In this document: piece after piece, positions 36,040-53,835 of the stretch
Layout: every line of letters starts with the position of its first letter
How positions within the stretch are numbered: position 1 is the first letter of the stretch
Assembly (NCBI RefSeq): GCF_900114585.1
Contig: NZ_FOTL01000005.1
Span: 1-64,000, forward strand
Origin: Methanobrevibacter olleyae
Lineage (GTDB): Archaea; Methanobacteriota; Methanobacteria; Methanobacteriales; Methanobacteriaceae
Length of the DNA stretch: 64,000 nt
Direction of reading: 5' to 3'
Made by a program: the position numbers and the translations under genes
The notes under the pieces: model-generated
The model's database searches: none
What the model was told of the DNA's origin: nothing
Seen by the model: only the letters and a program-made list of their open reading frames with translations

Positions 36040-38943
36040 ATGAGTACTGAAAGAAAGAACATTGTACTAAAGGGAGGAAGAGAACATAACCTTCAAAATA
36101 TTGATCTATCAATTCCACGTGATCAGTTTGTAGTCGTTACTGGTTTAAGCGGTTCAGGTAAATCAACACTTGCTTTTGATACTATTTATGCTGAAGGACA
36201 GCGTAGATATGTTGAATCATTATCTGCATATGCAAGGCAATTTTTAGGTCAAATGAAAAAACCTGAAGTAGATTACATTGAAGGCCTATCTCCTGCAATC
36301 AGTATAGATCAAAAAACAACAAAAGTTAATCCAAGATCAACTGTAGGTACTATTACAGAAATTTATGATTATTTACGTTTATTATTTGCACGAATAGGAA
36401 TTCCGCATTGTCCCAATTGTGGAAAAGAAATATCTCATCAAACTATCGGGCAAATAACTGAATCAATAATCGAAGAAGGAGAAGGAACTAAAATACATGT
36501 TCTATCCCCAGTTGTTAAAGACCGTAAAGGAGAACATAAAGATATTTTAGAAGAATTTAGGAAAAAAGGATTCGTTAGAGTCCGTGTAGATGGTGAAATT
36601 AAAGGTCTTGATGAGGATATTGAGCTTGGAAAAAACTTTAGGCATAATATTGAATTAGTTGTAGATAGACTTGTAATCCGTGAAGGGATAGACTTCCAAA
36701 GAAGACTATCAGATTCTATAGAGACAGCTTGTAATTTTGCAGAAGGATTAGTTAAGGTCATGTTTAGTAAAAGGGATGATGAGGGAAATGAAACTATCTA
36801 TGAAAAAACATATTCTGAAGACTTTGCATGTACTGACTGCGGTATAAGTTTTCAGGAATTAACTCCCCGTATGTTTTCATTTAATGCACCTCAAGGAGCA
36901 TGTCCTGAATGTAATGGTATTGGAACTAAAATGGAAATGGATCCTGACTTAATTGTACCAAATAAAAACCTAAGTTTAAATGATGGTGCCATAGTTCCAT
37001 GGTCTAAATCTACTAAAAAAGAAAATTATTATTATCAAATGCTTAAAGCAGTAGCTGAGCACTTTAAATTTAGTATGGACACAGCATTTAAAGATTTAAC
37101 TCCAGAAGAACAAAACATTATTCTCTATGGTTCGGATGAAAAAGTGGCATTTGCATTTAAAAGAAGAAATAGATCTTATAGGGTAAATCGTAAATTTGAA
37201 GGTGTCATTACAAGAATGGAAAGATTATATATAGAAACTAAATCTAATTATAATCGTAGTTATATCTCTAAGTTTATGAGTGACCGTAAATGTCCTGTTT
37301 GTGGTGGAAAAAGACTTCGTCCAGAGATTTTAGCAGTAACTGTAGGAGATAAGTCTATTATGGATGTATGTGATTTATCTATTAAAGATAGTTATCAATT
37401 TTTCCAAGATTTAGAATTAACAGAAAGGCAATTATTTATTGGTAAAGAGATTTTAAAAGAGATTAAAGCAAGATTAAAATTCCTAGTAGATGTAGGTTTA
37501 GACTATATTACAATGTCTAGATCTTCTGGAACCTTGTCTGGAGGAGAAGCACAAAGAATAAGATTAGCTACCCAAATAGGTTCTGGACTAGTGGGAGTTC
37601 TTTATATTTTAGACGAGCCAAGTATTGGTCTTCACCAAAGAGATAATAAAAAGCTTATTGGAACCTTAAAACATTTAAGAGATATAGGGAACACTTTAAT
37701 TGTAGTGGAACATGATGAAGAAACTATTCTATCTGCTGATTATGTAGTTGATATAGGTCCTGGAGCTGGTGAACATGGAGGTAAAATAATTGCTGAAGGA
37801 AGCCCTGAAGAGATTATGGAATCTTTAGACTCTATCACTGGCAAATATTTATCAAGAAGGGAAACAATTCCTATTAACTCTAAAAGGAAAGAGGGAAATG
37901 GTAAATTCTTAACTGTTAAAGGTGCAAAAGAAAACAATCTTAAAAATATTGATGTAGATATTCCATTAGGACTATTCACTTGTGTTACTGGAGTAAGTGG
38001 CTCTGGAAAAAGTAGTTTAATCAATCAGGTTTTATATAAAGGCTTATCTACAATTATAAATAAAAAATACATGCATCCTGGAAAGCATGATTATATCGAA
38101 GGAATTGAAAATATCGATAAAATCATTAGAATTGATCAAAACCCTATTGGAAGAACTCCACGTTCAAATCCAGCTACATATGTAGGTGTTTTTACTCCAA
38201 TAAGAGAATTGTTTGCTGAGACTCCTGAATCTAAAGCAAGAGGTTATAAACCTGGAAGATTTAGTTTTAATGTAAAAGGAGGAAGATGTGAATCTTGTTA
38301 TGGGGATGGAATCATACAAATTGAAATGCATTTCTTATCTGATGTATATGTTCCTTGTGAAGTATGTAAAGGTAAAAGATATAATGATGAAACTTTAGAT
38401 ATTCGCTATAAGGGTAAAAACATCTATGAAGTTTTAGAAATGACTGTAGAAGAAGCATTGGAATTCTTTGAGAATGTACCAAAAGTTGCAAGAAAACTTC
38501 AAACATTATATGATGTTGGATTAGCTTATATTAAACTAGGTCAACCTGCTACAACCCTTTCTGGTGGTGAAGCTCAAAGGGTAAAATTAGCTAAAGAGTT
38601 ATCTAAAACAAGCACTGGTCAAACATTATATATATTAGATGAACCAACTACAGGCCTTCACTTTGATGATATAAAGAAATTATTAAAGGTTTTAGATAGA
38701 TTGACAGATGCTGGTAACTCTGTTGTTGTTATTGAACATAATTTAGATGTTATTAAGACAGCTGATTATATTATAGATTTAGGGCCTGAAGGAGGAGACG
38801 GTGGTGGAGAAGTTATAGCTACTGGAACACCTGAAGAGGTTGCAGAATCTGGAACTTATACTGGTAACTTTTTAAAAGAAGTTTTAAGAGAGAATATAAC
38901 AGTTCATGCAAAAGAATTAGTTGAAGAAAAGGCAAGTAAATAA
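36040..38943 (+). CDS. uvrA: UvrABC excinuclease subunit A
   Basis: 967 residues, full length. Two ABC ATPase modules: Walker [15 protein letters not shown] near residue 30-45 with signature [17 protein letters not shown], and [13 protein letters not shown] with [16 protein letters not shown]. Zinc-binding cysteine pairs occur in [17 protein letters not shown]...[14 protein letters not shown] and CESCYGDG...CEVCKGKR. It is the damage-recognition ATPase of nucleotide excision repair. Methanobacteria hold a bacterial-type UvrABC acquired long ago. uvrB and uvrC are not in the window. GGTGA precedes ATG. Confidence 0.97.
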
Positions 38944-44972: not shown

Positions 44973-45257
44973 ATGCCAATTACGTTAATTAGAAGTAGGA
45001 GAAGATTAATTAATAGCAGCACTTATAATTCTCCCAATCATAGAAGAAATAAAAAGTTATTAGCTAATAGTCAAGCTCAAAGAGCTCAAAGAAACAGAGA
45101 TAAAAAAAGAGCTTTATTAGATAAACTTAAAAATAAAAATAAACCTAAAGCTAAAAAAAGACCTAAAAGATCTAAAATGCCATATAGGTTTAAGTATTAT
45201 CAATTCCAAGATTATAAATTTAAAGAAGAAATTGAAGAATTAGAAAAATTAGAATAA
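44973..45257 (+). CDS. Small, highly basic hypothetical protein
   Basis: 94 residues, rich in Lys/Arg in the middle (NRDKKRALLDKLKNKNKPKA, KKRPKRSK) with an acidic tail (KEEIEELEKLE). Probably nucleic-acid-associated. No known family. The start is ATG with weak upstream signals. Pair with the preceding small gene suggested by spacing. Confidence 0.55.
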   Translation: MPITLIRSRRRLINSSTYNSPNHRRNKKLLANSQAQRAQRNRDKKRALLDKLKNKNKPKAKKRPKRSKMPYRFKYYQFQDYKFKEEIEELEKLE

Positions 45258-46545
45258 AATTTATTTTTATATTTTCTTTAAATTTATTCTTTACTATTTT
45301 TTTAAAATTTCATTTTTCAATTTTTATTAAAATTTTATTTTTTACTACTTTTTAAAAACTTCATTTTTTTAATTTTTATTAAAATTTTATTTTTGCTATT
45401 TTTTAAAGTTTCATTTTTTTAATTTTTTTCTGAAATTTTAATTTTTTAAAAATTGTATTTTAAAAAATCTATTTTTAATTTTTAAAAAAGAAGTGATTTT
45501 TAAAATCTACTTCGTTAAACTGTAGTATAACGAAGTAAAACTTTTTTATCAAAATTTAATCTTCAAAAACATCAAAAAATAACAAAATGATATATATGTA
45601 ACTATAACATTTTACTATTTTAGAGCATTTTTGATTTTTTTGATGAAAATTTTAAATTTACACTTGAAATCTAACCATAATACTTTTTTATAATATTTTA
45701 ATAAAATAGTTTTATTATAGAGAAAATATTTGATTAAATCAAAACTTTTATTCTAGATTTCTAAGTAATTGTTTTTATTAATTAAAACTATTTTTCAAGA
45801 TTTGAATAAATGTTTTTATCATTAAGGACAGTTAGTAAATAATGATACAAATTTTTATGAAAATGAGATTCATATTCTTCATGATCTTTTTTGATAAATT
45901 TTCTTTTTTTAAAAAATTAAAAATTTCATTAATTATCAGAATTTATAATTAAAAAATTTGAAAAATATGAATTCTATTAAAAATAATACTTTTTAGATTA
46001 AAATTATTACAATTTAAAGTAATACTTTTAATTAATTTTTTATTAATTATTTAATACTAATTATTAAAATTTTATTACTTTTCTCAATTAGAAAATAATA
46101 ATTTTTATCCAGTTTTTATTACTTTAACCGAATATTAAGTAATATCTTTTATTGAATTATTATTAATTAGAAAAAATATCAAGTAATAATTATTTATAAA
46201 AAGTATTAAATTAAATAATAATTTTTATAAAAAAAGTAATATAATTAATTATCCTATTAATTAAGATGATGAATAATTATAAAATTAGAAAATTATCAAA
46301 ATAAATAAAATTAAGGGAATTTTAAACTTAAAAAAGAGAAAATAAACTAATAAATATAGAAAAATAGAAGAAAATACCATAAATTAATCAATAGATATAT
46401 ATCAGTTTGTTTAAAAATAGATGTTTAATAAAAGAATTAATAATTTAAAAGAATAATACTCTAAATTTAATAGAAAAAATAAAATTAATAATTTAAAAGA
46501 ATAATACTCTAAATTCAATAGAAAAAATAGATTAGTAAAATAAAA
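45258..46545. other. AT-rich gene-free region
   Basis: No gene or RNA recognised. Starts with three imperfect repeats of a TTTTTAAAATTTCATTTTT-like unit (about 45290-45440). Contains the inverted repeat at 45508-45537 listed separately. From 46421 to 46536 a roughly 64-bp tandem duplication (AAAAGAATTAATAATTTAAA type) precedes the end of the large helicase gene. No origin-type repeats were identified. Confidence 0.5.
45508..45537. other. 10-10-10 inverted repeat
   Basis: TACTTCGTTA at 45508-45517, a ten-base spacer, then its exact reverse complement TAACGAAGTA at 45528-45537, followed by a T run. CG dinucleotides are rare in this region, which makes the arms stand out. Could be a terminator hairpin, a repressor site or a recombinase site. 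Confidence 0.6.
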
Positions 46546-49500
46546 TTATCTAAATTCTATTTTACCATTATTATTAATTAAAATTCCTTTTCCGATCATT
46601 GCATCAATCACTAATGTGATTTTATTTGAAGTCTTCTTAGATGTAGATTTAAAACCAAATGCTCTAGAGACTTTTTTAGCTAAATCATTGACTTTTAAGG
46701 ATTTTTCAAAGCTTAAAACTAAATCGACAGCTTTTTCTATTTCAACCTCTGAAATTAAATCTATATTTGGTTTAACTCTTTTTCTTAGCTTTATAGAATC
46801 ATAGTCCATAAATAAGAAATCATTTTCTCTGATTAAATTAAGATGAGCCTCATTACGATTGATTGCTTCAAATATTGCATTTTTAAACTTAGTACCTGCA
46901 CGAGATAATCCACAACTTTCTCTTAATCTACGAATAACTATATCTACATGAACAGGCCCTTCTACAGCTACTATATCCATAACAGCAGTTGCCAATTTCT
47001 TCTCATCATCGTAAATTTCAGATGAACTTTTGATAATTATATCTTGAATTTCACTATATTCTTCAATATAATCATTTAATTCACCAGATGGGGTTAATCT
47101 TGTATTATCTACAGCACTAAGAACATTAGCTTCTTTATTTCTTTCATTTTCTAAATCTTGATAACCTTGTCCGATATCACTAATAATATCCTCAAATAGA
47201 TCATCATCAATTTCTATACCATCAATCAAATCTTCACTATCTGAAATAGATTCATTTATATTAGGTTGGGATGAGTCTATAGGGACAGTATCTTCTCTAA
47301 ACTCAGATAAAGCCTCTCTGCTATCTTGATAAATGGTATTTTCCTGATTAGCAGTTGAATTAATAGGAATTATAGCTTCATTTTCGATTTCCATATAATC
47401 ATTTTCAGAAAATTCAATATAAGAATCATCATCAGTAGCACTATTTGTGTATTCTTCAATTTTATCTAAGTATTCATGCTTTTTAGAATTAAATAATGAT
47501 TGATGATTATCTTCTGAAGTGGAACTATTATCATAAGTCTTTTGATACTGTGAATTATATCTTTCTTCAGAATAATTATCATTATAATACTCTTTATTTT
47601 CATACGGATTAGTTTGAGAACCTTCAGCTATTACTGTTTCGTTATAAGAATCGTTGGGGTCTTTAAAGAATTCATCATCTGCAGAGCGATCAATAACATA
47701 AACCATTTCTCTTTCAGAAGGATTTTCTATTTCATCCATTGAAGCTTTTAAGTAAAGCATTTCATTTTTAAGACTATTTACAGTTCCTGCAATGCCAATT
47801 TTATTCCTATCATCGTTTTTTGGATACTGAACAGCATTCTTTTTAAGAGCATTTTCAATTCCTACAGCACTATAATAATAAGGATTATTAGAATCAGTTG
47901 AATCTGATTTGGGACTTTTATTTATCTTTTGATTTAGATTAGATTCTGAATAATATTCATGAATAGAATCATCATCTTCATTAGATAGATTCTTTGATTT
48001 TCTTTTGTCCTTTAATCCATCATGTTCATTTTCTTTAATAGGAGATATATAATCTAGATTCTCATCATAAGAATTGATTTGATTATTTCTCTTTTCAGCA
48101 CTAATAGGAACAATAACATCTGGAGATTCATCAAAAGATTCTTCTTTTTTCTTTCTTCTCGGAGCCCTATATCCTCTCATATTTTCATTACCTTCAGATT
48201 TATTATTATTTAAATATTCATTATTTATTTCTTCTAGTATATCTTCTGAAGTATTTTCTATACTTCCATGATTATTATTTATAATATCTTCTTCATAAAT
48301 ATTTACATTTTCATTTACATCAGTATTAGTATTATTATTAGTATTATTATTAGTATTATTAAGATTTAATTCATCTGTAGAATTAACACTTATTTCTTCT
48401 ATCAATTCTTCATTTAGCTCTTTTTTAGGTTTTTCTTTGATATTTTCTTCTTTAGAAATATTTTTAGGCTTTTTATTTACTTGTTCGCTTTGAACTTTTT
48501 GATGTTTTTTACTAGATTGAGAATCATTGTTTTGGAAATTAATAGATATCTCATCACCAATATCCTTTAACCTATTCATTAAAGATTTAGCTTTATTATT
48601 CTGACTATTCTGATGATTTATATCATTTGCATGATTTATATTATTTTTATTTTGTTTATTATTTAAATTATATTGCTTAGTTTCATTAGACTTTGATAAA
48701 TCATCTTTTAGTTTAAATTCCCCCTCAACTATTCCAGAATTATCAAAAGATTTATCTTCATTAGAATTTTCATTAATTGCTTTAGATTTTTCATCAAAAT
48801 CAGATAGATTATCATTTTCTTCTTCTTTTTCTTCTTCGTTAAACTCTTTAAATTTATTGTTATAATCATTGGAATCATCAAGAGTTGAAGAGTTTTCTAA
48901 ATCAGATGAATTATCTATTTCACTAGAATCATCCTCATCTGAATTATCATAATCATTTATATCATTAGAATCATCATTATATGAATCATCATAATCATTT
49001 ATATCATTAGAATTATCTATATTACTAGATTCATCTATAGCATCAGAATTCTCATCATAATCAGAATTTTCATTAAGATTTTTATTTAATTCCACATCAT
49101 AATCAGAATTTTCATTAAGATTTTTATTTAATTCCTCATCAAAATCTTCTAAATATCTATTAATTAAATCATCTTTTTCTCTATCTTTTGGTGATTTTTC
49201 TTTAATTTCATTTATCTGGTCTTTCTTTGTTTTATCATTATCAATACCATCTTCACTACTATTATCAAGAACAACTGTAGTAACTGGATTGATCTTCATT
49301 GATTCAACATCACTAATCTTTTTCTTTAAATTTAGAACTTTAGTATTAATTATAGTTGATTCTATACTTTCTAATAATTTAGCTCTTGCTAAATCCCTAT
49401 TTCTATACCAATCTGTAGACCAAATATGATAAATATTCCAACCTAAACCATTTAAAACTTGTTCTCTTAATCTATCCCTATCTCTAGCTACTTTACTAGA

Positions 49501-52500
49501 AGCATAATTATTGCCATCACATTGAATACCTAAAATATATTTTCCAGGATTATCAGGATCTATGATTGCTAAATCAACTCTGAAACCTGCACAACCAACT
49601 TTTTTATCAACTTGATAACCATTTTCAGATATGAAATTATATATAGCATCCTCAAATGGAGCCTCTTCATATTCCTCTTCATCAATGAATTGATTAAGTG
49701 ACAAGCTTTCAGCATATTCTAAGAAACTTTGTAAGGATTTTACACCGAATGGTGGATTTGCAGTTAAATGAATGTCATGGGCTCTAAAATTAGTAAATAC
49801 TACACATTTTTCTCTTGCTCTTGTAATAAGTACATTCAAACGCCTTTCTCCTCCATCTTGGTTTAAAGGACCAAAGTTTAAAGACATTTTTCCTTCTGTA
49901 TCATATCCATATCCAACACTAATTAATATAACATCTCTCTCATCTCCTTGAATAGTTTCAAGGTTTTTAACAAAGAACCTTTCTTCCCTTTTATCAGAGA
50001 ATAATGGTTCAAATTCAGGGTGTGCTTTCCTTTCAATCTCCAATTCTTCTAAGATTGCATTTTTTTGAGCAACAGAGAAAGTACCTACACCTAAACTCTT
50101 TTTATCACCATGTTTTTCAAAGTGTTTAAATATTTCCTTAACTAGATCTTTTGCTTCAAGTGGGTTAGCAGAACCTTCACCTCTATGATATGCAGTATTG
50201 GGATTATAATGGAATTTTAAACCTAATTCTAAATCATTATGGGAGGGAGAAGGATAAACTAATAATTCATTATCATAAAATTCTTTATTTGATATATTAA
50301 TTAAAGACTCATGACGGCTTCTATAATGCCATTTAAGCATTTTAACTGGGAATGATAATTTACACAAATGAAGAATGCTTTCCATATCCAATGCTGTAGC
50401 AACTTCTTCTCCACTTTCACTATCAGTCATTTGATCAAAGAAGCTTGTTGGAGGTAATTGTTGAGTATCACCCATAACAACTGCTGTTTTACCTCTCATA
50501 AATGCACCTAATGCATCCTCAGGTTTAACTTGACTTGCTTCATCAAAAATTACAACATCGAATTCTAATTTTGGATTAGTAGGATCAAGATATTGTGCAA
50601 TTGATAATGGACTCATCATAAATACTGGTTTAATCTTTTTAATTGTTCCTCCTGCCTTTTCAAGAAGAGTTCTAACAGGTAAATGACCACTTTTTCTTGT
50701 AAATTCCCCAGCTAATACTTTAGCTTCAGGATCATTTGTAGCACCATATATTTTAGGGATTTGATTATTTAATTTATTAAATATTCTTTTTCTATTAAGG
50801 TTAATGATTTTTCTATCTAAGTCTTTAAATTCACCAATACGATTTTCATGCAATTCTCCAATAAAGGTTGCTAAAGTATCATTTTCATTAAATACAATAT
50901 TAAGTAAACTATCAGCAAAATTACCTAGAACTAAGGGTTTTACATCATCTTTTTTAATATTTCTTTTTTCAATAGCCTTAATAAATAATGATGCCTCTGT
51001 ATTCATACATGCTTTTTTCGTATTTGAATACTGTGACCACAAGTGAAGACTTGATAATTGCCCTTTCCATTTGTTTAATTGGTTTTCCCATTTATCAAAT
51101 GGCACATCTTCCGTTTCCTTTTTAAAGATAATTTTACTTCTTGGATTTAATTTAGATTCTAATTTTTTAAGATTTTCATAGAATTTATTACCTTTTTCAA
51201 CATATTCCTCTATACCTGAATCAATACTATTATGTAAAAGCTCATTTGAAAGTATTTTAACAGTATTTTTAGTGAAAGTACCATTAGATATAAGATAAAC
51301 AAATTTATTCATCCAATTTGCAACTTGTTTTAATTCATTGATATCTGCATTTTTACTCCATAAATCACCAAAATATGCTCTAGCAATTTCTTCATTATCT
51401 TTTAGGCTTTGTCTAATTTTTATATGATTACGTACTTTAATTAAATCATTTAAAGCCTCTTTATCACTAGGAACATTAGCATTATAAAGTTTATAAAGCT
51501 CTTCTTTATGAGAATTTCCACCAAATAAACGGAACTTTTTATTTAAATCTTTTTCTAAATCAAAGATTATCCTATCTAAATCTGCAAGAAGTAAATAATC
51601 TGTAAATTTATTAAATAATCCTGAAGCATGCTGATAATGCTCTAGCAATCTAATCAGTTCTAAAGATTTCTGAGGATTATTGAACCATACTTTAGAAAGT
51701 AAAATAGAACTGTCTACTAAGTTAGCACTTTCACTATTTAAAATATTTAATGCTGTAATTGAATCTTCATATTCTTTTAGAGTATTTGGTATTTTAATAC
51801 CATAAATTTCATTGATTATATCCATTTCAAATCTAAAGTTAGCTAAAGACTCTAAACTATCTCTAATTAATAATTCTATTTCTCTTAGATCTCCAGGAAG
51901 TAAACTTTTTGGATTACAGTAACTCCAAGGATTATTCTTAGAAATAGTTGAATATAGTTCTGCTAAATTCTCTAATGATATGATTATATCATCTAAATCT
52001 TTTATTGATAAATTTTCAGCATCATTAAATCTAACTAACGGCAATAATTTATTTTTACGAGCGAAATAATCTTCTGAAGACTCTTTCATACCATATAATT
52101 CAAATGGGCTAAGATTTACCTTAGCTACTGGTGAATGAATAATCTCGGCATATTCATCTAATTGATTACGTAAATTTTCAAGTTTTCTAAGAGTTTGATC
52201 TAGTTTTAAATCTCTTGTTGCTCTTACATTAGTTGCTTTTTTAAGATTTTTTAATAATTGTTTCCTTCTTGTTTTATGGGAATGTAGCTCCAATACAAAT
52301 TTTCCAAGACCTACACTATCTAGCCTGCTTTTTACAACTTCCAATGCAGCCATCTTTTCACTAACGAAAAGAACTGTTTTACCTTCAGCAATAAGCTCAG
52401 CTATTAAGTTTACGATAGTTTGTGATTTACCAGTTCCTGGAGGACCTTCTACAACTAAGTTATGACCTGCTTTTACATTTTCTATTGCTGCAATTTGTGA

Positions 52501-53409
52501 AGAATCTGCATCTAATACCTGATACATAGTTTTATAGTGTAATTTTTCATCAACATCTTCTTCTTCAAAGGTATCGTCATAAACATTTTTGCTAGGATTA
52601 AATATAGCTTGAATCAACTCATTTTTAGTTAAGTCCACATCTTTATGCCAACTTTCAGGATTTAAGTCATTATACATAACAAATTTTGTAAATGAGAAGA
52701 ATCCTAAAGCTACATCATCTTTTATATCCCATTTGCCAAATGCTTTAATTGCCTTTTTAACCTCTAGTAAATATTGATTTACACCTTCAATATAAGATGT
52801 TTGCTCAAATTTAGGTAATTCAATACCTGCTTCACGTAATTTAGCTTGTATAGAAATATTATTTTGTATATCTTCCCCAGTCCAAGATAAAGAAAAGGAA
52901 TTTCCTACTTTCTTACGTTCCATAGCTACTGGAATAAGAATAAGGGGAGCTAAATTCTTTTGTCTTGGCTTTTTCTTATCAACCCATTCTATAAAACCAA
53001 GAGCTATATAAAGAATATTATAACCTTGTTCTTGAAGCATAGTTTTAGATTGCTGGTCAATATAAAATAATCTTTTCTGAAGCTCACTTGGAGTTAAATT
53101 AGCTTTTAATGTTTTATCTGTTTCTGAGGATAAAAATTCTTTAGTTTGGTCAATGAAAGCATGAGCTTTAGATTTTTTAGTCTCTTTTTTATTAGCAGAG
53201 AAATACATTTTTTTATTTTCTAAAACAAGGATTTTATATACATTCATAGGTGATTGATTGATAATATTGAGATTCCTATTTCTTGCTTTAAAACTAAGAA
53301 GAGGGTTTCTTAAAGTTAAGTCTAAGAGTTCTTTTCTTAGATTCTTAAACTCCTTCTCAATATCTTTATTAGATATAGTGTTATTTTTTGATGGTGTTCT
53401 AAATTGCAT
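46546..53409 (-). CDS. DUF4011-helicase-nuclease-DUF3320 protein, Hhe-like defence candidate
   Basis: 2287 residues. Order: DUF4011 (1-~310, LRKELLDLTLRNPLLSFKAR); SF1 helicase with Walker A VEGPPGTGKSQTIVN (~322-336), Walker B VVIFDEASQVKPEDAL (~955), GDTQQLPPTSFF, motif IV HYRSRHESLI, ETIQGDERDVILIS and VLITRAREKC; a Vsr/MTES_1575-type endonuclease domain (~1240-1360, FRVDLAIIDPDNPGKYILGI...ARDRDRLREQVLNGLGW...IWSTDW); a roughly 720-residue acidic, Asn/Ser/Asp-rich low-complexity stretch (~1375-2095); and a C-terminal DUF3320-like domain (IVAVEGPVHVDIVIRRL). This combination matches the single-protein Hhe system described by Gao and colleagues. Predicted anti-phage or anti-plasmid nuclease-helicase. 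The long insert is unusual. Confidence 0.85.
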   Translation of the reverse strand: MQFRTPSKNNTISNKDIEKEFKNLRKELLDLTLRNPLLSFKARNRNLNIINQSPMNVYKILVLENKKMYFSANKKETKKSKAHAFIDQTKEFLSSETDKTLKANLTPSELQKRLFYIDQQSKTMLQEQGYNILYIALGFIEWVDKKKPRQKNLAPLILIPVAMERKKVGNSFSLSWTGEDIQNNISIQAKLREAGIELPKFEQTSYIEGVNQYLLEVKKAIKAFGKWDIKDDVALGFFSFTKFVMYNDLNPESWHKDVDLTKNELIQAIFNPSKNVYDDTFEEEDVDEKLHYKTMYQVLDADSSQIAAIENVKAGHNLVVEGPPGTGKSQTIVNLIAELIAEGKTVLFVSEKMAALEVVKSRLDSVGLGKFVLELHSHKTRRKQLLKNLKKATNVRATRDLKLDQTLRKLENLRNQLDEYAEIIHSPVAKVNLSPFELYGMKESSEDYFARKNKLLPLVRFNDAENLSIKDLDDIIISLENLAELYSTISKNNPWSYCNPKSLLPGDLREIELLIRDSLESLANFRFEMDIINEIYGIKIPNTLKEYEDSITALNILNSESANLVDSSILLSKVWFNNPQKSLELIRLLEHYQHASGLFNKFTDYLLLADLDRIIFDLEKDLNKKFRLFGGNSHKEELYKLYNANVPSDKEALNDLIKVRNHIKIRQSLKDNEEIARAYFGDLWSKNADINELKQVANWMNKFVYLISNGTFTKNTVKILSNELLHNSIDSGIEEYVEKGNKFYENLKKLESKLNPRSKIIFKKETEDVPFDKWENQLNKWKGQLSSLHLWSQYSNTKKACMNTEASLFIKAIEKRNIKKDDVKPLVLGNFADSLLNIVFNENDTLATFIGELHENRIGEFKDLDRKIINLNRKRIFNKLNNQIPKIYGATNDPEAKVLAGEFTRKSGHLPVRTLLEKAGGTIKKIKPVFMMSPLSIAQYLDPTNPKLEFDVVIFDEASQVKPEDALGAFMRGKTAVVMGDTQQLPPTSFFDQMTDSESGEEVATALDMESILHLCKLSFPVKMLKWHYRSRHESLINISNKEFYDNELLVYPSPSHNDLELGLKFHYNPNTAYHRGEGSANPLEAKDLVKEIFKHFEKHGDKKSLGVGTFSVAQKNAILEELEIERKAHPEFEPLFSDKREERFFVKNLETIQGDERDVILISVGYGYDTEGKMSLNFGPLNQDGGERRLNVLITRAREKCVVFTNFRAHDIHLTANPPFGVKSLQSFLEYAESLSLNQFIDEEEYEEAPFEDAIYNFISENGYQVDKKVGCAGFRVDLAIIDPDNPGKYILGIQCDGNNYASSKVARDRDRLREQVLNGLGWNIYHIWSTDWYRNRDLARAKLLESIESTIINTKVLNLKKKISDVESMKINPVTTVVLDNSSEDGIDNDKTKKDQINEIKEKSPKDREKDDLINRYLEDFDEELNKNLNENSDYDVELNKNLNENSDYDENSDAIDESSNIDNSNDINDYDDSYNDDSNDINDYDNSDEDDSSEIDNSSDLENSSTLDDSNDYNNKFKEFNEEEKEEENDNLSDFDEKSKAINENSNEDKSFDNSGIVEGEFKLKDDLSKSNETKQYNLNNKQNKNNINHANDINHQNSQNNKAKSLMNRLKDIGDEISINFQNNDSQSSKKHQKVQSEQVNKKPKNISKEENIKEKPKKELNEELIEEISVNSTDELNLNNTNNNTNNNTNTDVNENVNIYEEDIINNNHGSIENTSEDILEEINNEYLNNNKSEGNENMRGYRAPRRKKKEESFDESPDVIVPISAEKRNNQINSYDENLDYISPIKENEHDGLKDKRKSKNLSNEDDDSIHEYYSESNLNQKINKSPKSDSTDSNNPYYYSAVGIENALKKNAVQYPKNDDRNKIGIAGTVNSLKNEMLYLKASMDEIENPSEREMVYVIDRSADDEFFKDPNDSYNETVIAEGSQTNPYENKEYYNDNYSEERYNSQYQKTYDNSSTSEDNHQSLFNSKKHEYLDKIEEYTNSATDDDSYIEFSENDYMEIENEAIIPINSTANQENTIYQDSREALSEFREDTVPIDSSQPNINESISDSEDLIDGIEIDDDLFEDIISDIGQGYQDLENERNKEANVLSAVDNTRLTPSGELNDYIEEYSEIQDIIIKSSSEIYDDEKKLATAVMDIVAVEGPVHVDIVIRRLRESCGLSRAGTKFKNAIFEAINRNEAHLNLIRENDFLFMDYDSIKLRKRVKPNIDLISEVEIEKAVDLVLSFEKSLKVNDLAKKVSRAFGFKSTSKKTSNKITLVIDAMIGKGILINNNGKIEFR

Positions 53410-53671
53410 AGTTATAATCCCTTACTTTAGAATTTTAAGAATTTTTTTAATACAATATTATTTATATTTATAGTAATTTATAAAGTTTTGTAAATAGCAT
53501 TTTTTATTTAAAAACTTAAATTTTATTGAATTTAAACATAATTACTTTTAACTGATTTTAATGATTTTTTAAGAGATTATCTTTGATATTTTTTAAAAAA
53601 TTAAACTAAATGACTATGATTTATAGAAATATCCATAAAATCTTCTATTTAACTAAAATAAAATATGATTT

Positions 53672-53835
53672 ATTATTTAAATTTATTTAGTTTAATAAAA
53701 TCAAAAGATGGTTTATTGTTTAAATTTATTTAGTTTAATAAAATCAAAAGATGGTTTATTGTTTAAATATATTTAGTTTAATAAAATCAAAAGATGGTTT
53801 ATTGTTTAAATTTATTTAGTTTAATAAAATCAAAA
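53672..53835 (+). repeat. 43-bp tandem repeat, four copies
   Basis: AAATCAAAAGATGGTTTATT units at 53698, 53741 and 53784, with a fourth, diverging copy at 53827. The array sits between the helicase gene and the aldo/keto reductase promoter. The rest of 53410-53671 shows nothing. Confidence 0.92.

Follow-up and report, generated by a model that had tools for sequence, protein, structure and literature searches.

An altered Vsr-type nuclease domain in a defence-related helicase protein of Methanobacteriales, with a possible role in genome maintenance

Results

Domain organization of the protein

The window analysed here, a 64,000-nucleotide stretch of DNA from the archaeon Methanobrevibacter, carries on its minus strand an uninterrupted open reading frame spanning exactly positions 46546-53409. 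The reading frame, together with Pfam, describes a giant protein of 2287 residues composed of DUF4011, an SF1 helicase, a Vsr-fold domain, a linker and a wHTH/DUF3320 end. DUF4011 occupies residues 27-191 (52837-53331, on the minus strand like all parts of this gene given below; Pfam E-value 8.9e-42). The AAA_11/AAA_12 matches of the SF1 helicase are split between about residues 296 and 1207, with the first RecA part placed at residues 296-440 (52090-52524) by Pfam and motif alignment, and the second, AAA_12, at residues 1016-1207 (49789-50364) by Pfam. The SF1 motor motifs are intact in alignments, i.e., Walker A (GPPGTGKS, residues 322-329, 52423-52446), which is invariant among orthologues of this gene (hereafter, resident copies), Walker B (DVVIFDEASQ, containing DEAS, residues 951-960, 50530-50559) and motif VI. 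The helicase core gave only weak matches to SEN1, SMUBP-2 and UPF1, and by sequence no close solved homologue of the protein was found. A Vsr-fold MTES_1575 nuclease domain follows at residues 1252-1349 (49363-49656; Pfam E-value 1.7e-34, and fold prediction), and the C-terminal region with wHTH/DUF3320 (residues 2098-2287, 46549-47118) includes a DUF3320 match at residues 2137-2174 (E-value 5e-13).

Pfam thus matched every domain listed in a preliminary description of the sequence (DUF4011, SF1 helicase, Vsr-type nuclease and DUF3320), and its archaeal host was also borne out. The same description placed the gene in a gene-poor area, which is true only of the AT-rich intergenic DNA flanking it, about 1.3 kb long on one side and 0.5 kb on the other. 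In the intergenic region upstream of the gene, a 43-bp unit is repeated in tandem (53648-53835; 4.4 copies with 95% likeness), and a 48-bp repeat pair lies just downstream of the gene (46435-46529).

Relationship to known defence families

PADLOC ranked its PDC-S37 model first (1623.6 bits), followed by Hhe (673 bits); in the better of two matching stretches, residues 15-1382 align to positions 4-1363 of the 1550-position PDC-S37 profile. The NCBIfam models for Hhe (NF042953) and ProA (NF058533) gave 906.6 and 1302.7 bits, missing their curated cut-offs of 2000 and 1500, respectively, and the ProA match begins at profile position 348. As a Pseudomonas aeruginosa plasmid protein scores 2372 with ProA and a Klebsiella plasmid protein 2436 with the PADLOC Hhe model, the window protein is a sister type and a member of neither. 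It belongs to the DUF4011-SF1-Vsr superfamily, together with Hhe, ProA and PDC-S37. Homology to the Hhe group, as proposed earlier, was thus correct, but the label Hhe-like was imprecise, given the PADLOC ranking and the missed cut-offs. Within the literature library searched, no paper naming PDC-S37 and no experimental test of it were found, and a search for ProA was likewise empty. One good match was obtained in a phage collection, from a human-gut record. Among the relatives is a divergent paralogue of 2314 residues (L055:1789-8733) in which Walker A (APSSSNKTD) and Walker B are both degraded, i.e., a dead or repurposed motor.

These matches, full-length to PDC-S37 and strong but partial to Hhe and ProA, favour the main rival to the explanation that we put forward below, namely that the gene encodes a fixed (core) single-protein antiviral system like Hhe, ProA or PDC-S37, whose motor senses invading DNA and whose nuclease destroys it. 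Such an arrangement also finds a parallel in P. aeruginosa, where a DUF4011 gene is core and flanks a defence hotspot (PMC10250203). A further point in its favour is an accessory paralogue with an intact nuclease signature (L129:287-10254), which comes immediately after the HsdS and HsdR genes of a type I restriction system. We nonetheless regard a fixed antiviral system as unlikely in view of the distribution, active site and neighbourhood of the gene.

Distribution and inheritance

Orthologues are present in all eight good-quality Methanobrevibacter genomes, with 63-95% identity over the aligned parts. DUF4011 was detected in 34 of the family's 36 genomes, in 7/8 genomes of family f2 and in none of four from family f3, counts in which a few hits are accessory paralogues (as is every copy read from genus g3), and the nuclease model scored above its cut-off in 113 of the 132 genomes of the phylum. 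We take f2 to be Methanothermobacter-like and genera g10, g15 and g31 to be Methanobacterium-like. When a tree was built from the second helicase part, the 74 rows of resident copies clustered apart from the accessory paralogues, the deep branches being unsure with the quick method used. The gene order is conserved within the genus: the gene is flanked on one side by genes for an M42 peptidase and an aldo/keto reductase, and on the other by a 94-aa open reading frame and a gene for an Ig-like surface protein. This 94-aa frame (44973-45257), which encodes a basic protein and adjoins the gene across the genus, has no Pfam match. In one f2 genome assembled as one contig, the resident gene is divided into three open reading frames of 204, 1157 and 191 aa (L068:7586-12189) and is possibly a pseudogene.

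The resident gene is vertically inherited and ancient in Methanobacteriales, and near-universal among those sampled. Its presence in nearly all of these genomes and the conserved gene order contradict the horizontal acquisition that was suggested initially. The domain list and the isolated look of the locus had suited a recently acquired Hhe-type defence gene; with synteny conserved and inheritance looking vertical throughout the genus and in most of the order, and with both the Hhe and ProA cut-offs missed, we consider such an origin highly improbable. The expected setting of a defence gene did not hold up either: the distribution is not patchy, the gene is not mobile, and its neighbours within the window are housekeeping genes and uvrA, with no defence island around it, which also speaks against the fixed antiviral system.

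An altered nuclease site under purifying selection

To model the nuclease domain, we ran AlphaFold2 on residues 1234-1389 with an alignment of 21 rows (the window protein, Methanobrevibacter and IMG/VR relatives), a single-sequence model being too weak. The prediction (mean pLDDT 77.5, pTM 0.65) has an alpha-beta-beta-beta-alpha-beta nuclease core, with pLDDT values of 77-94 per ten-residue block across the core. The nearest nuclease structures in Foldseek were the catalytic domain of I-Bth0305I (3r3p, TM-score 0.78 by target) and Vsr (1cw0, probability 0.94), with no match at E <= 0.001; mitoribosomal RAP-domain proteins likewise ranked high in the list. Taken together, the predicted structure, Foldseek and Pfam support a Vsr-type nuclease fold, so that both this fold and DUF3320, on which the earlier proposal depended, were recovered.

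The window protein nevertheless departs from the family signature E-C-D-G...Y-H, with Q1296 (codon 49522-49524) in place of Glu and A1303 (codon 49501-49503) in place of His, a point on which the earlier reading is not supported. Most resident orthologues have Q, T, L, I, N, K or M at the first position and A or S at the second; Glu is kept in 16 and lost in 57 of the 73 resident copies and His is kept in 5 and lost in 68, both being retained only in the Methanobacterium-like group. Glu is retained in all 22 Methanobacteriales paralogues, and both residues in 5/5 plasmid copies and in 13 of 14 readable viral-contig rows; the His after Tyr is kept in most mobile homologues and paralogues, with Asn in one paralogue clade. 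E1253, D1279 and D1298 are still present nearly everywhere. One viral-contig relative from IMG/VR (L199) has ILLDG...YG instead of ECDG...YH; here the signature was lost in a protein that does not belong to the resident methanogen lineage. The persistence of E1253, D1279 and D1298 counts against an inactive nuclease, as does Vsr itself, which is not known to have an acidic residue at the Glu position.

Parsimony on a helicase tree, built without the scored nuclease columns, gave about eight changes for Glu and four for His. In the two main altered clades (Q/A and T/S), the median dN/dS of the nuclease domain is 0.031 and 0.032; with values of about 0.03, we rejected the idea that the domain is a decaying pseudogene. 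The domain is thus strongly constrained and serves a function, though probably no longer that of ancestral cutting. From their conservation in mobile homologues and general knowledge of PD-(D/E)xK and Vsr folds, we infer that Glu and His are catalytic, and ancestral DNA cleavage has probably been lost or altered in the resident lineage. Repeated loss of the signature counts against the fixed antiviral system, whose nuclease would have to destroy the invading DNA. Defence was a reasonable initial guess on the basis of the domains, but what is seen at the nuclease site argues against a standard DNA-destroying effector.

The nuclease and C-terminal domains are separated by an acidic, Asn/Ser-rich hypervariable linker of ~700 residues (about residues 1386-2090, 47140-49254), rich in N, E, D, S and K. 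Its length is 35-50 aa in f2, 101-177 aa in Methanobacterium-like copies and 354-1078 aa on the Methanobrevibacter side, and its dN/dS in the two altered clades is 0.49 and 0.33, values affected by uncertain alignment and high dS. The linker holds a few conserved islands, among them one aligned at about residues 1844-1912 (YYYSAVGI...VYVIDR, 47674-47880), and our guess is that it acts as a flexible tether or interaction hub.

Linkage to DNA-repair genes

The gene for UvrA (967 aa, identified by Pfam) lies at 36040-38943 on the plus strand, 7.6 kb from the giant gene, and is near it also in other genomes of the genus. PADLOC labels the same interval mad3 (E-value 7.5e-105), illustrating the risk of ABC-ATPase false positives in defence scans. 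On the same contig of this genome, mrfA and uvrC lie at distances of 19 and 52 kb from the gene. The identities of MrfA (MZB), MrfB (RNase_H_2) and UvrC were confirmed by Pfam. As to whether the protein replaces a missing UvrD, UvrD_C matches are weak in this genome but strong in other genomes that also carry the gene. In Bacillus subtilis, MrfAB acts in the repair of mitomycin C damage (PMC11194089).

The gene order differs between genera apart from the repair genes. In f2, g8, g9, g10 and g15, mrfA and mrfB are located just upstream on the same strand, with mrfA 2.4-5.8 kb away. In more than 20 genomes of g5 and g7, uvrC starts between 16 nt before the end of the gene, overlapping it, and 14 nt downstream, which leaves little room for a separate promoter, and in g6 both mrfB upstream and uvrC downstream are retained. 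These associations are positional, and related genomes do not provide independent observations of them. Each linkage, with mrfAB and with uvrC, may go back to a single inherited arrangement. We also considered strict co-occurrence with MrfAB/UvrC and rejected it: g3 and f3 have mrfA, uvrA and uvrC without the resident gene, so the protein is not an obligate partner. The linkage to repair genes is a further point against the fixed antiviral system.

Discussion

The balance of this evidence leads us to favour, at about even odds, a domesticated relative of a PDC-S37-like defence enzyme that now serves genome maintenance in Methanobacteriales. More tentatively, its specific form could be an archaeal excision- or crosslink-repair factor not recognised before, in which a domesticated defence-type DUF4011-helicase-nuclease, now a conserved pseudo-nuclease, works with UvrABC and MrfAB. 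In this mechanism, DUF4011 and the wHTH/DUF3320 end would bind DNA and the intact SF1 motor would travel along or remodel damaged or branched DNA. The Vsr-fold domain, with its Glu and His replaced, would mainly be a DNA-binding or damage-sensing module, or retain weak, altered cleavage, and incision or resection would be handed to partners encoded nearby, i.e., UvrABC and the MrfA helicase/MrfB exonuclease. The role in repair, the hand-over to UvrC/MrfB and, from sequence, the loss or alteration of catalysis are all inferred; among the points against genome maintenance is that the closest named relatives are anti-phage proteins.

An intact motor combined with an altered nuclease and a DNA-binding end might instead belong to a dual genome-integrity sensor, which would detect damaged or abnormal DNA of any origin and recruit or release a separate nuclease, thereby giving both virus protection and repair. 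A precedent is provided by Hachiman, whose helicase shows that the sensing of DNA damage can serve defence (PMC12278908). As a signalling partner lacks direct support and only the repair genes persist in the neighbourhood between genera, we consider a dual sensor rather improbable.

In a group of methanogens dominant in gut and rumen, annotation tools would mark this gene as a candidate for defence in almost all genomes. Should it instead act in repair, the number of defence systems counted in these archaea is too high, and their lineage offers a natural experiment, with intact-nuclease accessory copies alongside repeatedly altered resident copies, in which the switch between defence and maintenance is directly testable.

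The likeness of the window protein to MrfAB/UvrABC repair lies in gene neighbourhood and presumed substrate class, an association by gene order alone, and MrfA, an SF2 helicase, comes from a different family than the SF1 protein studied here. With Hhe (NF042953, PDLC02194) it has DUF4011, the SF1 helicase and the MTES_1575 nuclease in common, whereas in a Klebsiella Hhe the two halves of the helicase are separated by a longer region, DUF3320 is not matched and ECDG...YH is intact. Pfam found no HEPN domain, which we take to be part of the Hhe name, in the window protein, but found none in a Klebsiella Hhe either. Giant proteins combining HEPN, transglutaminase, SF1, Vsr and wHTH domains have been described (Anantharaman et al., 2013, PMC3710099), and they share with the window protein an SF1 helicase, a Vsr-type REase and a wHTH overlapping DUF3320, while the window protein lacks HEPN and transglutaminase by Pfam. 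ProA shares the domain order from DUF4011 through helicase and nuclease to wHTH, but with an N-terminal extension of ~350 aa that is absent here. PDC-S37, a PADLOC candidate single-gene defence family, has the same domain order from start to end, and a Methanothermobacter-like orthologue with a short linker aligns over residues 9-1594 to positions 4-1544 of the 1550-position profile (1672 bits); the window protein differs from this family in its ~700-aa acidic linker before the wHTH and its changed nuclease signature, and in being core and syntenic rather than mobile.
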